DNA from: Bacteroidota bacterium
GTDB lineage: Bacteria; Bacteroidota; Bacteroidia; Chitinophagales; Chitinophagaceae
Assembly (NCBI GenBank): GCA_018267545.1
Contig: JAFDYG010000451.1
Location: 1-63,285 of the forward strand
Length of the DNA: 63,285 nucleotides
Direction: 5' to 3'
Position numbers and translations under genes: made by a program. Shown piece by piece: positions 46,962-63,270 of this stretch (positions within the stretch are counted from its first letter, which is position 1; every line of letters begins with the position of its first letter). Below the pieces are notes generated by a model that worked only from the letters and a program-made list of their open reading frames with translations, had not been told where the DNA came from and searched no databases.

Positions 46962-49900
46962 TCACACTGTTTTTACGTTGCCTGTCCGTTTTAGGACGCC
47001 CCAGTGCTGCAGCTCGCCCTTAAAGGCCCGGCGCACAGCCCGGAAGAGTACCAGCCAGGTCAGCCAGCGCCAGATCAATCGCTGCGGAATCAGCCAAACC
47101 AGCCGGCTGATGCGCTCCCTCTCGAAGCTAAATGCCACCACAGCCACTGCTAGATCCACCAGCATAAAGATCAGGTAATAGCCGGCAATCTTGGAGCCAT
47201 TGCCGGTAAGCAGACCGACGACCATAAAGAAGTCGGCCAGCGGGATCACAAAAGGTATGATATATTGAAAGATTAGAATATTTGGCATCGCGGCCCAGCC
47301 CAACCCACGATACTTCCAGTTTAGCAAAGCATCCCGGTTCTTCCAGAAGGTCTGCATGACGCCATAGCTCCAGCGGAACCGCTGCTTGAAGAATTGCTTC
47401 AAGGTCTCCGGCGCCTCGGTCATGGCGATCGCCCGGTTGTCGTTCTCGATCACATATCCACGACGCAGGATCCGGATGGTCAGGTCACAGTCCTCCGCCA
47501 GCGTATCGGTCGTAAATCCACCCGCTTCCTCGATGGCCTTCTTCCGGAAAGCGCCGATCGCACCCGGAACCACCGTTATCGCATTCAGATAGGCAAAGGC
47601 CTTGCGGTCGAAATTCTGGCTGCTGATATATTCGATGGCCTGCCAGCGCGTCATCAGGTTCACCTGGTTGCCGACCTTCACATTCCCGGCGACAGCGCCT
47701 ACCCGCGCAGACAGCTGCCCCGCCTTCTTCCCGCCCCGTGTTCCCCCGAAGTGCTCCATCAGCTTGCTGACGGCATCCTGCTTCAGCTTGGTATCCGCAT
47801 CGATACAGATCACGAATTCCGCTTCCGACTGGCTGATGCCATAGTTCAAGGCCGACGCCTTTCCTCCGTTGGGCTTGGTCAGCACTTTCACTTTTGGATT
47901 GTTCGCAAAGGCCGCGCTTACCCTTTCATAGGTCTGGTCCTGGCTGCCATCGTTGACGAAGATGATCTCGAAATTGGGATAGTCGCCCTTTAACAGACTT
48001 TCAATGGAACCGACCGCATTCACTTCTTCATTATAAGCCGGCACGATGATGCTCACCAGCGGCGCACCCGTTCCATCCGGCAGCCAGAAGGGCGCCAGGG
48101 CGTATTTCTTTTCCCGGAAATGCTCCCGGGTGGCGATAAAAGCAATGAAAAGAACCCTGCTCACCGACAGCACCATAAAGACGACAAACATCGAGAACAG
48201 GATATGGCTGGCCCAATAGCCCAGCTCGGCAAAATAATAATTGGCCTGTAACAGGTAGAACCCGCTTCCCTTCGGCACCGGCGGCATCATCTCGTCCTTG
48301 GTCTTCCCCAGGATATCCGCCACCGTGGTAAACTTGAAGCCACGTTTTTGAAAATGCTCGATGATCCTCGGCAGCGCCTCCACCGTCGGCATCCGGTCTT
48401 CCCCTCCCGCGTCGTGCAGCAGGATAATGTTCCCGCTGAGTCCCGACCTCGTCATATCGTTCTTCCTCCGGATCACCCGGTCGACGATACTGTCGGACGG
48501 AGTGCCAGGCTCCCAGTCCAGCGGGTCGATGGATTCACCGATGTCCAGGTAATTTTTCTTGCGGGCAATGGCCACCGGGATCAATTCCTCCCACTTCTCC
48601 GGCTCGAAATCCGCATTATAGGGCGCCCGGAACATGATCGTGCTCCGGCCCGTAATACACTCGATCAGCAGCCGCGTCGACTCCATCTCGAGAATGGCCC
48701 TCCCCTGGCTAACCTTGGCGATATTGGGGTGGGTAAACGTATGGTTGCCGATCTCATGACCTTCCTTGAACTCGCGCTTGACGATCGGAATATTGTTCTC
48801 CGCATTGATGCCCACCAGGAAGAAGGTAGCCGGCACATGATACTTGCTCAGTATATCGAGTATCTTGGGAGTATAGTTCGGGTCGGGGCCATCATCGAAG
48901 GTCAGCACCAGCTTCATCGAATCGTTGGTCCCGTATTTCCTCGCGACGAATCTGGACGGCAGGCTGTCATAGCTCTCCTCGCTGATCAGCATCTCTCCCG
49001 TATTTACCTCGGGCGTAATCCGGCCATTGGTAGGCGTAGCGATGATGTCCAGTATCTCTCCCGTGCCCTCATAGTCCACGAAGTCGGCGGTCGCCATGGC
49101 ATCCACCTTGCTGAACTCCGAGAAATTGAAGTGCCCCATCTTCGACTTCTGCATGTCCTGGTCATAAAAATACCAGGTCCGCGGATCCTCGTCACCGAGT
49201 CTCCACAACGCCGTTCCCGCAATCCCATATTCTGTCGCAAACCGCAGGGCGTTGAACGTTGTCGCCGCATCGGTAAACTGCACCTGGTGACGCACGTTAT
49301 CCTCGTCATCATAGTCGTAGTGCAGGTTATAGGAATCGTCGTCGAAGTCGATCTTCGCTTCTTCGTCCTTGGCCGTATACAACGCCTGCTGATAGCTCAC
49401 CGTCCGGGAAGACATCTCCTTGCCCAGTCGCCAGTCGTAGCCATAGGCGGCCAGACAGAGGACCAGCTTCTGCGTGGGAATGTTTTTGACCGCATCGTCC
49501 ACCGCCCCCTCGATCCACTTCTGATGCGCAATCGGCCCCGGACCCGAGGCGTCCGAAAACTGGTCGTAAGCCATCAGGAAAATATAGTCGTTGTACTTGG
49601 CCAGCTGCTTGAAGTTATAGTCCTCGTTGAACGGAATGACGTCCTGGGTTACCAGCAGATGCTTGGCGTGGAGACGCTCGTACAGGTCCTTCTGAAAGGC
49701 GACCAGCTTTTCATTGCTTTTCTCGACCAGCTCCTCGAAGTCCACGTTCACCCCGATAAAATTATTCTGCTCCAGTATGCGGACCAGGTCATTGATCAGC
49801 CGTTCCTTCTTCACCGGGTCGTTGATGATACGATGCACCGCGTCACCCCTGAACTGCTCCTTGAAGTTATTGGACAGGATCGGCAGGATCTTCACCCCGG

Positions 49901-50480
49901 ACTTCTTCATCACGCCCCAGGCACGCTGATCGATGTCGGTATAAATTGTGTCGGCATTCGGGTCGATAAAAATCCATTCCGGTATAACCAGGTTCATCTT
50001 GTCGATATACTGCTGAAGGGAAAGGAAAGACTGGGCGTCCCAGTCGACATAGAAAGCCGCCCGTATACCGGCAGGAAACTTGTTGAAGGACCGAAAGCTG
50101 GTGTCGGCCTGTTTGAGGCGATGCGCCGCAAGCCGCTCCGAGTCTTTTTTAGATTGTCCCGGGAAGGCCCCCGACCGGTACGGAACCTTTTCATTGATGA
50201 ACTTTCGGAAGCCCCCATACTGCTCGACAAGACTATTCTTGGGTAGAAGAAAGCTTTTATTGGTATCCAGCACTTTTTTGTACAGCTGGCTCTGCTCCGT
50301 CAGCCTGGGTACCGCAGGCGTATAATTCCGCGAAACCGCGATATAGAAAATGACAATACCCAATACCAAAACGAGAAGAACAATCCGTCCTCCCCATTTT
50401 AGCCGCTGCCAGCGGCCCGGCGAACTTGTCTGAAAAATCTGCTTTTTTGAACCAGGTGCTGGTGTCGAGTTACCTGTCAT
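46962..50480 (-). CDS. Trifunctional GH18-polysaccharide deacetylase-GT2 membrane protein
   Basis: 1172 residues. One anchor span at about 30-50, then an outside GH18-like domain (about 125-430) with GVNVDFEEL near 242: it keeps the catalytic Glu and adjacent Asp but has Asn for the second Asp of DxxDxDxE. Next a CE4 deacetylase (about 520-720): TFDDGPDPNY, HTFTH, FRAPYNADF and IILLHD, all present. After a span (about 760-790) comes a processive GT2 (VSIIVPAYNEE near 807, DAD near 892, ED near 997, QRFRW near 1032) and C-terminal spans. Inferred to synthesise, export, deacetylate and cut a beta-linked GlcNAc polymer, like PgaC plus PgaB in one chain. Confidence 0.88.
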   Translation of the reverse strand: MTGNSTPAPGSKKQIFQTSSPGRWQRLKWGGRIVLLVLVLGIVIFYIAVSRNYTPAVPRLTEQSQLYKKVLDTNKSFLLPKNSLVEQYGGFRKFINEKVPYRSGAFPGQSKKDSERLAAHRLKQADTSFRSFNKFPAGIRAAFYVDWDAQSFLSLQQYIDKMNLVIPEWIFIDPNADTIYTDIDQRAWGVMKKSGVKILPILSNNFKEQFRGDAVHRIINDPVKKERLINDLVRILEQNNFIGVNVDFEELVEKSNEKLVAFQKDLYERLHAKHLLVTQDVIPFNEDYNFKQLAKYNDYIFLMAYDQFSDASGPGPIAHQKWIEGAVDDAVKNIPTQKLVLCLAAYGYDWRLGKEMSSRTVSYQQALYTAKDEEAKIDFDDDSYNLHYDYDDEDNVRHQVQFTDAATTFNALRFATEYGIAGTALWRLGDEDPRTWYFYDQDMQKSKMGHFNFSEFSKVDAMATADFVDYEGTGEILDIIATPTNGRITPEVNTGEMLISEESYDSLPSRFVARKYGTNDSMKLVLTFDDGPDPNYTPKILDILSKYHVPATFFLVGINAENNIPIVKREFKEGHEIGNHTFTHPNIAKVSQGRAILEMESTRLLIECITGRSTIMFRAPYNADFEPEKWEELIPVAIARKKNYLDIGESIDPLDWEPGTPSDSIVDRVIRRKNDMTRSGLSGNIILLHDAGGEDRMPTVEALPRIIEHFQKRGFKFTTVADILGKTKDEMMPPVPKGSGFYLLQANYYFAELGYWASHILFSMFVVFMVLSVSRVLFIAFIATREHFREKKYALAPFWLPDGTGAPLVSIIVPAYNEEVNAVGSIESLLKGDYPNFEIIFVNDGSQDQTYERVSAAFANNPKVKVLTKPNGGKASALNYGISQSEAEFVICIDADTKLKQDAVSKLMEHFGGTRGGKKAGQLSARVGAVAGNVKVGNQVNLMTRWQAIEYISSQNFDRKAFAYLNAITVVPGAIGAFRKKAIEEAGGFTTDTLAEDCDLTIRILRRGYVIENDNRAIAMTEAPETLKQFFKQRFRWSYGVMQTFWKNRDALLNWKYRGLGWAAMPNILIFQYIIPFVIPLADFFMVVGLLTGNGSKIAGYYLIFMLVDLAVAVVAFSFERERISRLVWLIPQRLIWRWLTWLVLFRAVRRAFKGELQHWGVLKRTGNVKTV

Positions 50481-50551: not shown

Positions 50552-52474
50552 TTAATAATCCAGCTCCAGCCTGAGCCGATCCTTGAGCTCCTTTACCAGC
50601 GGATACTGCTCTACAATCTGTATAAACTGCTCCCGCTTATTCAATGGCTTTTCCCCCGGCTCTTCCTCTACGCGTTCTTTTTCCTCCACAATCACCGTAA
50701 AAGAAATCGCCTTATTCGAAAACGCCTTCTGCAGGTGATCCGACAGCGTGCGCTTCTCGTGCTCGATAAACTTCTGCTCCAGCGGATTGCTCGTTACCGC
50801 TATGAAGTTGTTGGCATCCGTAATCCGTAATTCCGCCAGCTCCAGGCTCTGCACGGCCGGATTCTTGTTTTCCCGCAGATAGTCGGCGTACTGCTGCCAG
50901 GCCTTGTGCAGCTCCTCGACGTCCAAACTCTTGCTCTGACCCTGCTCATTGGTCGACTGCTTTCCGGCAATCTGCTGTCTTATGCTCGATAAAGACCCCA
51001 GCGAACCCCTTCCCGCCAGTCCTGCCCCACCGCCGGCCGTCGCTGCCGCCGCATTCCCGCTAGTCGCCGCACCACCACCGGCCGCCGCCGCACTACCACT
51101 CGCTACTTTATTCTCTATCGGGACTTTAACTTCTTTTATACTCTCCGGCTCTTTCACCACTTCTGGCTCTTTCGCCACCTTCGTCTCCACAATCAGCTTA
51201 GCGCCCCCATTTTTCGGAGCCACCTCCGCCCCCGCATTCCCGCGCGCTTCCGCCCCAACGCCCCCGCGCGCTTCAGCGCCCGCTCCCCGCACCAGCTCCA
51301 TCGCCGGAATATTCCGGAAAGACACCGGCCTCAGCTGCTCAGACTTTTTTTTTCCATCCCCCCCTGCGCTTACCTGCAAGGCTTGCGCCAGGTAGCAAAG
51401 CTTGATCAAAGCCAATTCCACATGCAGCCGCTTATTCCTGGCTGATTTATAATTGAGCTCGGCTTCATTCAATACATTCAGCGCGCTGATCAGGTACAGC
51501 GTCTCGACACTCCTGCCCACCGACACATACCTGTCCTTGAAACTCTCCACCACTTCCAGCAAAGCCGCTACCTTCTCGTCCTTACAAACCAGCAGGTTCC
51601 GGATAAACTCCGCAAACCCATTCAGGACCAGGTCTCCCTCGAACCCCTTCCGGTTAATATCGTCATATATAAGAAGAGCATCCGCCAGATTCTGCTGCTG
51701 CATCGCATCCAGGATACGGAAGTAATAGTCCGCGTCCAATATATTCAAGTGCTCCAGCGTATTCCGGTAGCTCAGCTCCCCATTGGTAAAGCTGACGATC
51801 TTATCCAGGATACTCAACGCATCCCGCATACAGCCCTCGCTCTTCTGGGCGATCATCTGTAATGCCGGCTTCTCCGCACTGATCTCCTCCTTTTGACAGA
51901 TGTCCTCCAGGTGCTCTACCGTATCGGCCGAAGTAATCCGCTTGAAGTCGAAGATCTGACAGCGCGAAAGGATGGTAGGTAATATTTTATGCTTCTCCGT
52001 GGTCGCCAGGATAAAGATGGCGTAGGAGGGGGGCTCTTCCAGCGTCTTCAAAAAGGCGTTGAACGCCGAGGTGCTAAGCATGTGCACCTCATCGATGATA
52101 TACACCTTGTACTTCCCGGCCTGCGGCGCAAATCGCACCTGCTCCACCAGCGTCCGGATGTCGTCCACCGAGTTATTGCTGGCGGCATCGAGCTCGTGGA
52201 TATTCAGGGAAGTCCCCTCGTTAAAGGAGACACAGGAATGACAAGTGTTACAAGCCTCCCCCTGTGGGGTGACATTTTCACAATTGATAGTTTTTGCTAA
52301 TATTCTCGCACAAGTCGTCTTCCCGACGCCCCGAGGCCCGCAAAACAGAAACGCGTGCGCCAGCTGCCCATTCTTGATCGCATTCTTAAGGGTAGTCGTG
52401 ATATGCGATTGACCCACCACCGTCGAAAAATCCTGGGGGCGGTACTTTCGCGCCGAAACAATAAATTTATCCAT
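50552..52474 (-). CDS. dnaX: DNA polymerase III subunit tau/gamma
   Basis: 640 residues. Clamp-loader AAA+ ATPase: Walker A GPRGVGKTTCARI near 46, zinc module with CENVTPQGEACNTCHSC, Walker B IIDEVHML, SRC sensor (LSRCQIFDFKRI). Domain III ends near 370. A variable Ala/Gly/Glu-rich linker (about 390-490) and a tau C-terminal domain follow. At codons 374-377 the coding strand has G7-ATGG-A9-G; a -1 slip leads to GTC TGA at once, giving a 378-residue gamma-like product. tau joins polymerase and helicase at the fork (family knowledge). Start at the ATG at 52474. Confidence 0.95.
   Translation of the reverse strand: MDKFIVSARKYRPQDFSTVVGQSHITTTLKNAIKNGQLAHAFLFCGPRGVGKTTCARILAKTINCENVTPQGEACNTCHSCVSFNEGTSLNIHELDAASNNSVDDIRTLVEQVRFAPQAGKYKVYIIDEVHMLSTSAFNAFLKTLEEPPSYAIFILATTEKHKILPTILSRCQIFDFKRITSADTVEHLEDICQKEEISAEKPALQMIAQKSEGCMRDALSILDKIVSFTNGELSYRNTLEHLNILDADYYFRILDAMQQQNLADALLIYDDINRKGFEGDLVLNGFAEFIRNLLVCKDEKVAALLEVVESFKDRYVSVGRSVETLYLISALNVLNEAELNYKSARNKRLHVELALIKLCYLAQALQVSAGGDGKKKSEQLRPVSFRNIPAMELVRGAGAEARGGVGAEARGNAGAEVAPKNGGAKLIVETKVAKEPEVVKEPESIKEVKVPIENKVASGSAAAAGGGAATSGNAAAATAGGGAGLAGRGSLGSLSSIRQQIAGKQSTNEQGQSKSLDVEELHKAWQQYADYLRENKNPAVQSLELAELRITDANNFIAVTSNPLEQKFIEHEKRTLSDHLQKAFSNKAISFTVIVEEKERVEEEPGEKPLNKREQFIQIVEQYPLVKELKDRLRLELDY
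51339..51364 (-). promoter_or_regulatory. Putative programmed slippage site in dnaX
   Basis: On the coding strand: seven G, ATGG, nine A then GTCTGAG. Normal frame reads GGA AAA AAA AAG TCT GAG. One added A, or a -1 ribosomal slip, gives AAA GTC TGA. The G run resembles the upstream Shine-Dalgarno enhancer of E. coli dnaX, and a CCGGAATATTCCGG palindrome lies downstream. T. thermophilus uses an A9 run for transcriptional slippage (literature recollection). Confidence 0.72.
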
Positions 52475-63247: not shown

Positions 63248-63270
63248 CCCCCCCCCCCCCCCCCCCCCCC
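63248..63270 (+). repeat. Run of 23 C
   Basis: An uninterrupted run of 23 cytosines in the C-rich end of the window. Homopolymers like this slip in replication and sequencing, so its length is uncertain and may be an assembly artefact. Confidence 0.8.

Follow-up and report, generated by a model that had tools for sequence, protein, structure and literature searches.

The dnaX genes of Escherichia coli and Thermus thermophilus are the standard cases of a gene that specifies both a full-length product, tau, and a shorter product, gamma (PMC5009743). In E. coli, the frame is changed by the ribosome at an in-register heptamer, with the help of a Shine-Dalgarno (SD)-like element and a stem-loop; in T. 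thermophilus, RNA polymerase transcribes a run of nine A's into messages that differ in their number of A's (PMC1088944). Production of both gamma and tau, in a ratio of about 1:1, is a feature of the Thermus system. A 2013 survey by Antonov et al. described 17 split dnaX genes from 12 genera, for which slippage was suggested; nine of these, from species left unnamed in its main text, have a run of ten A's, and three Chlorobi species are named in the survey (PMC3711429). The dnaX gene of Blochmannia likewise contains a poly(A) tract where transcriptional slippage is believed to restore the frame, but there, unlike in the gene described here, the tract is found past the gamma site, within the tau-only region, and the genomes are those of reduced symbionts (PMC3017870). 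Slippage that yields a shortened protein is difficult to spot by comparison, as a 2005 survey notes, because no coding sequence is gained that could be compared (PMC1088944), and in a 2012 review most bacteria are held to keep no dnaX frameshift signature and possibly to make no gamma (PMC3290774).

The dnaX gene studied here lies on the minus strand (50552..52474) of the window, that is, the whole 63,285-base stretch that was analyzed. Its tau reading frame is open for 640 codons, and the product matches NCBIfam models PRK14971 (710 bits against a cut-off of 685) and TIGR02397 (441 bits against a cut-off of 250), as well as the Pfam domains DNA_pol3_delta2, DNAX_ATPase_lid and DNA_pol3_gamma3. 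Read on the minus strand, a run of seven G's (51364-51358) is followed by ATGG, nine A's (51353-51345) and GTCTGAG, such that codons 374-377 are GGA AAA AAA AAG; the letters, coordinates and codons of the A run given in the initial annotation are therefore correct. Within the run and the following G sits an in-register A_AAA_AAG (51344..51350), with letters identical to those of the E. coli dnaX site. One extra A, equivalent to a −1 shift, would bring a TGA 3 nt past the run into frame (51339..51341), and translation bears out the proposal that this would give a 378-residue gamma beside a 640-residue tau. One A fewer would lead, in the +1 frame, to a second TGA 11 nt past the run (51331..51333) that the initial annotation had overlooked, and so to a gamma of 380 residues. 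The predicted gamma coding region (51339..52474, from translation and domain matches) thus comprises domains I-III followed by KKKV. Domain III is matched up to residue 365, in agreement with the earlier placement of the site right after that domain, and the remainder (50552..51343) is the tau-only part, delimited by the open reading frame and by a matching tau end in related genes (see below).

The locus accordingly resembles both standard cases in part. As in T. thermophilus dnaX, there is a sense-strand run of at least nine A's, here exactly nine, within a single tau open reading frame, with near stops in both non-tau frames and a shorter product that would be gamma (PMC1088944, PMC5009743); unlike in that system, the gene belongs to another phylum, and slippage, demonstrated there, is proposed here. 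As in E. coli, A_AAA_AAG stands in register with a −1 stop within a few codons, but the run is longer, the +1-frame stop is also under selection, and there is neither a conserved SD-like stimulator nor a clear stem-loop. The nine A's at dnaX are the only run of at least nine A's or T's in the window. The whole genome (7,315,069 bases in 553 contigs) contains 63 overlapping matches to nine A's on the two strands, which by simple proportion gives a probability of about 0.001 for such a match to begin within any particular 180 nt of a single strand. Two other features of the window were noted: a gene at 46962-50480 (minus strand) for a 1172-residue protein with glycosyl hydrolase 18, polysaccharide deacetylase and family 2 glycosyltransferase domains, and a run of 23 C's at 63248-63270, close to the contig end, that may be a sequencing artefact.

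To compare the site across relatives, we sought dnaX in the genus, family, order, class and phylum, and obtained matches in 432 distinct genomes. Of these genes 397 were fetched and 394 analyzed, three being too short (L103, L301 and L402). The genes left unfetched were G010, which came with no locus; G180 and G442, which lie at a contig edge; G260, a partial hit; and another 31 rows, each from outside the class, that were picked without a rule. The run was defined as the longest A run within 60 codons after residue 352, a rule that may pick a non-homologous run where the site has been lost (for example in L029 and L030). (Note that class here means GTDB class; GTDB places Chitinophagales in Bacteroidia.) Among the 32 loci of a single contig scan, which may have missed the record of the window itself and those closest to it, the nearest one with a species name is that of Puia dinghuensis (family Chitinophagaceae, NCBI class Chitinophagia), at 77% identity; its cultured strain CGMCC 1.15448 has nine A's in the same layout.

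A run of at least nine A's occupies the dnaX site in 335 of the 394 Bacteroidota genomes. Its length is ten in 185 genomes, nine in 135, eleven in 14, twelve in one, eight in five, seven in eight and six in ten, with shorter runs in 36; 320 of the 394 thus have exactly nine or ten. The run reaches nine A's in 22 of 30 genomes of the same genus, in 312 of 353 of the same class, in 23 of 41 fetched from other classes of the phylum (not a random sample, given the 31 rows omitted without a rule) and in 24 of 31 named records, some of which share a species (a further one of 32 was partial). In these 22 congeneric genes, the −1 frame closes within 12 nt in 21 and the +1 frame within 30 nt in 20; L010, L020 and L031, of the same genus, have a run of at least eight but no prompt −1 stop. 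Many of the genes L005-L033 also encode, after the run, a short peptide like RPVSFRNIPAME (window 51296-51331, minus strand), which is recognizable across the genus despite the variable linker that precedes it. Runs of this length are rare elsewhere in the same genes: there is one in the 414,564 nt upstream, before residue 352, and there are nine in the 245,835 nt of the tau part. The run is just as common in GC-rich dnaX genes (11 of 12 with at least 55% GC). Its register is free (109, 118 and 113 genes in the three codon positions), its length peaks at nine to ten in every register, and none of 138 representatives has a run of eight. The initial annotation had named relatives with a broken run as the case that would count against it; such relatives do occur, but as a minority, the run being shorter than eight in 54 of the 394 genomes.

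The site also bears the marks of selection at the level of nucleotides. Lysine codons at the site are AAA rather than AAG in a ratio of 704:44, as against 4123:1910 upstream. For the stops, we used 276 genes with a run of at least eight and tau in frame, and took the expectation from synonymous shuffling. (With the open-frame limit set at 280 nt, L006 counts as intact and the set numbers 276; at 300 nt it falls under 'other' and the set numbers 275. The tau frame of L006 has a TAA 286 nt past the run with homology continuing beyond it, which is either a nonsense change or a sequencing error.) A −1 stop within 12 nt of the run was found in 263 of 276 genes, against 126.5 ± 6.7 expected; a +1 stop within 30 nt in 259, against 163.6 ± 6.8; and stops in both non-tau frames in 248, against 70.2 ± 6.3. 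The −1 stop is the closer and more strictly kept of the two, since the +1 stop falls within 12 nt in only 139 of 276. Both stops were present in 70 of 81 representatives sharing less than 75% identity, where 20.4 ± 3.3 were expected. In 52 genes without the run, which serve as a natural control, both stops occurred in six, close to the 3.3 ± 1.6 expected, so that the excess of stops is found only where the run is kept. The comparison of relatives that the initial annotation had called for thus came out in its favor, with the run widely retained and the out-of-frame stops under synonymous selection. A run of nine or ten A's in dnaX appears, from these counts, to be kept by selection in the window and in most relatives. 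Taken together, the position of the run after domain III, the kept stops and the synonymous selection make a separate gamma very likely, and we consider it very likely that gamma and tau are both made from the dnaX gene of the window.

In 64 of the relatives, dnaX is split: the zero frame stops at the run, no more than 16 nt past it in all 64, and tau continues in the −1 frame in 58 and in the +1 frame in six. The tau C-terminal region is recognizable in the shifted frame in every one of the 64 (profile built from intact relatives, E < 1e-3), and the third frame is closed within 30 nt in 62. These genes, among them those of Puteibacter caeruleilacunae and Prolixibacteraceae bacterium JC049, leave tau unreadable without a shift; because of the zero-frame stop, the frame must change at the run unless the cells lack tau. 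Reinitiation was considered as another way to express the downstream part and rejected, as just one of the 64 has a tau-frame ATG (the only start codon counted) in the interval from the run to 45 nt beyond the stop. The split genes have the same two-open-reading-frame form as those of Antonov et al. (PMC3711429), unlike the gene of the window, which is intact, with tau in the zero frame and no zero-frame stop at the run; we infer that the intact form would escape a search for frame transitions. In a FastTree phylogeny of the N-terminal part of the 340 genes with a run of at least eight, rooted at the midpoint and analyzed by parsimony, intact and split forms interchanged at least 32 times, the register of the run changed 69 times and its length 76 times. 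The states nevertheless follow the tree, with 69 changes among four states compared with 110 when labels were shuffled; the relatives are not independent, and the representative set and the tree correct for this only in part. The split dnaX genes (64 of 394) are, on this pattern, likely to be functional rather than pseudogenes, and should serve as a warning to annotators.

The results of these comparisons lead us to propose, with reasonable confidence, that the nine A's are a selected slippage site at which RNA polymerase adds or drops A's, yielding dnaX messages in three frames. In particular, the polymerase would most likely gain or lose A's on the run and so place all three frames downstream of it; messages that keep the templated A count, or exceed it by three, would encode the 640-residue tau, whereas other numbers would lead to one of the two stops (3 or 11 nt past the run) and hence to gamma, of 378 residues with one extra A and 380 with one fewer. 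The sequences themselves show the run, the two stops with their conservation and synonymous selection, and the relatives whose tau needs a change of frame; that this change takes place in transcription, that both proteins are made, and in what ratio, are inferences. The initial annotation had allowed for either a −1 slip or an additional A in the RNA; the comparison favors RNA with A's added or missing. Four observations together favor transcriptional slippage over frameshifting of the E. coli type: the length of the run, its free register, the mixture of frames in which tau is found, and the lack of any excess of SD-like sequences. Transcriptional slippage is therefore the best-supported route to the predicted gamma, and the putative slippage site is real, selected and far more widespread than the window. 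Somewhat less firmly, we favor a class-wide reading in which the tau frame is not fixed in the DNA: polymerase would make all three frames, selected stops would close the two that do not encode tau, and the template would then be free to drift by one or two bases.

The main alternative, which we regard as unlikely, is that gamma arises, as in E. coli, by programmed −1 ribosomal frameshifting at A_AAA_AAG on faithful transcripts. The window has exactly the heptamer and the −1 stop, 3 nt on, that this would require, and a pure −1 ribosomal shift would likewise make the −1 stop the nearer and stricter one, as it is among the 276 genes (within 12 nt in 263). The heptamer alone cannot discriminate, however, and was set aside as uninformative, because every run of at least nine A's holds an in-register A_AAA_AAR. 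Runs at codon position 3 need only seven A's to supply a heptamer, yet 111 of 121 (runs of at least six) have nine or more; since these are as long as the others, the heptamer is unlikely to be the reason for the run. A_AAA_AAG, which is far slipperier than A_AAA_AAA in E. coli (PMC5009743), occurs in 66 of 340 genes. Selection on the +1 stops and the six split genes with tau in the +1 frame also argue against a −1 mechanism. The picture differs at short A_AAA_AAG sites without a long run (L018, L027, L205 and L325): in all four the −1 frame closes within 9 nt, and L018 and L027 have no +1 stop near, whereas at short A_AAA_AAA sites a −1 stop falls within 9 nt in none of four (one lies at 11 nt). 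These four lineages may, to judge from their stops, use the ribosome, having switched from polymerase slippage, or may be in recent decay. In a 2016 review, the reversed, split dnaX genes are attributed to ribosomal frameshifting, and Chlorobium phaeobacteroides dnaX is said to have potential E. coli-like stimulators (PMC5009743).

Stimulators of the E. coli type are not conspicuous in the genes compared here. The run of seven G's in the window (51358..51364), which the initial annotation had suggested as an enhancer, we judge to be incidental: seven G's occur within 30 nt upstream in one of 340 genes with the run, the window itself. As an SD-like element it was rejected on this ground and because SD-like four-mers, present in 101 of 340 genes, match the synonymous expectation of 98.9 ± 6.5; the raw count seems enriched over upstream windows (202 of 1700), but the enrichment is gone against synonymous shuffles. 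(On the ribosomal side, frameshifting in prfB is reported to be common in Bacteroidia despite a hidden anti-SD (PMC8710568).) Predicted folding downstream of the run had a mean z of −0.46 in 150 random genes with the run, compared with −0.35 and −0.10 in controls and −0.40 in the window, and fell below −2 in 12% of the 150 compared with 8% and 5% of the controls; a weak folding effect may exist.

A second alternative holds that ribosomes slide in both directions on the A run, with no special stimulators, and stop in either frame. This predicts an identical dependence on length, a free register and stops in two frames, and E. coli ribosomes do slide on A runs, sometimes on just three AAA codons (PMC4363877). 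As far as the sequences go, sliding ribosomes and a slipping polymerase look alike. However, in a cell-free E. coli system with three lysines, a run of eleven A's gave a robust product but nine or ten gave little (PMC4363877, section 11), and it is exactly nine or ten A's that 320 of the 394 genomes have. We therefore think sliding ribosomes improbable; for polymerase slippage, the literature searched yielded no measurement with a Bacteroidota RNA polymerase.

It is still less plausible that the run yields no second product and is a side effect of base composition or of a patch of lysines that is useful in itself. The linker past the run is variable, and LigD-like genes of the family have a lysine-rich linker with at least nine A's in four of 23 (the gene of the window's genome included, and with 480 nt searched compared with 180 for dnaX). 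Against this stand the AAA bias, the free register, the retention of the run in GC-rich genes, the selection on stops only where the run exists, and the split genes, which need a shift. One of the LigD-like runs, ten A's in the lysine-rich linker that joins the 3'-phosphoesterase and ligase domains (L464 / L473; G000 contig C301, about 12.7 kb), has stops 35 nt (−1) and 10 nt (+1) past it; given the four in 23, it is probably not programmed. Finally, we give almost no credence to a phase-variable DNA tract or to assembly errors as the source of the split genes: homopolymers mutate and misassemble easily and many of the genomes are drafts, but the split form recurs in related species with prompt stops, and tau is required for replication in known systems, so that a phase-variable off state is unlikely.

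Slippage of RNA polymerase at dnaX is a kind of mechanism already known; the novelty lies in how much of the class it would cover and in the drift seen in the frame of tau. We found no report of a class-wide dnaX slippage signal in Bacteroidota in the open-licence literature searched, and PMC3322544 and PMC3017870, the two papers that came up besides the 2013 survey, give none in the parts consulted. The test for stops in two frames is one way around the difficulty of recognition raised in 2005. If the class-wide reading is true, it would be slippage of the polymerase that determines, throughout a whole bacterial class, how much gamma the replicase has relative to tau. A signal selected throughout the class would make gamma the rule there, in contrast to the general view put forward in the 2012 review, and would supply hundreds of natural variants, losses of the run included, with which to probe what gamma is for.
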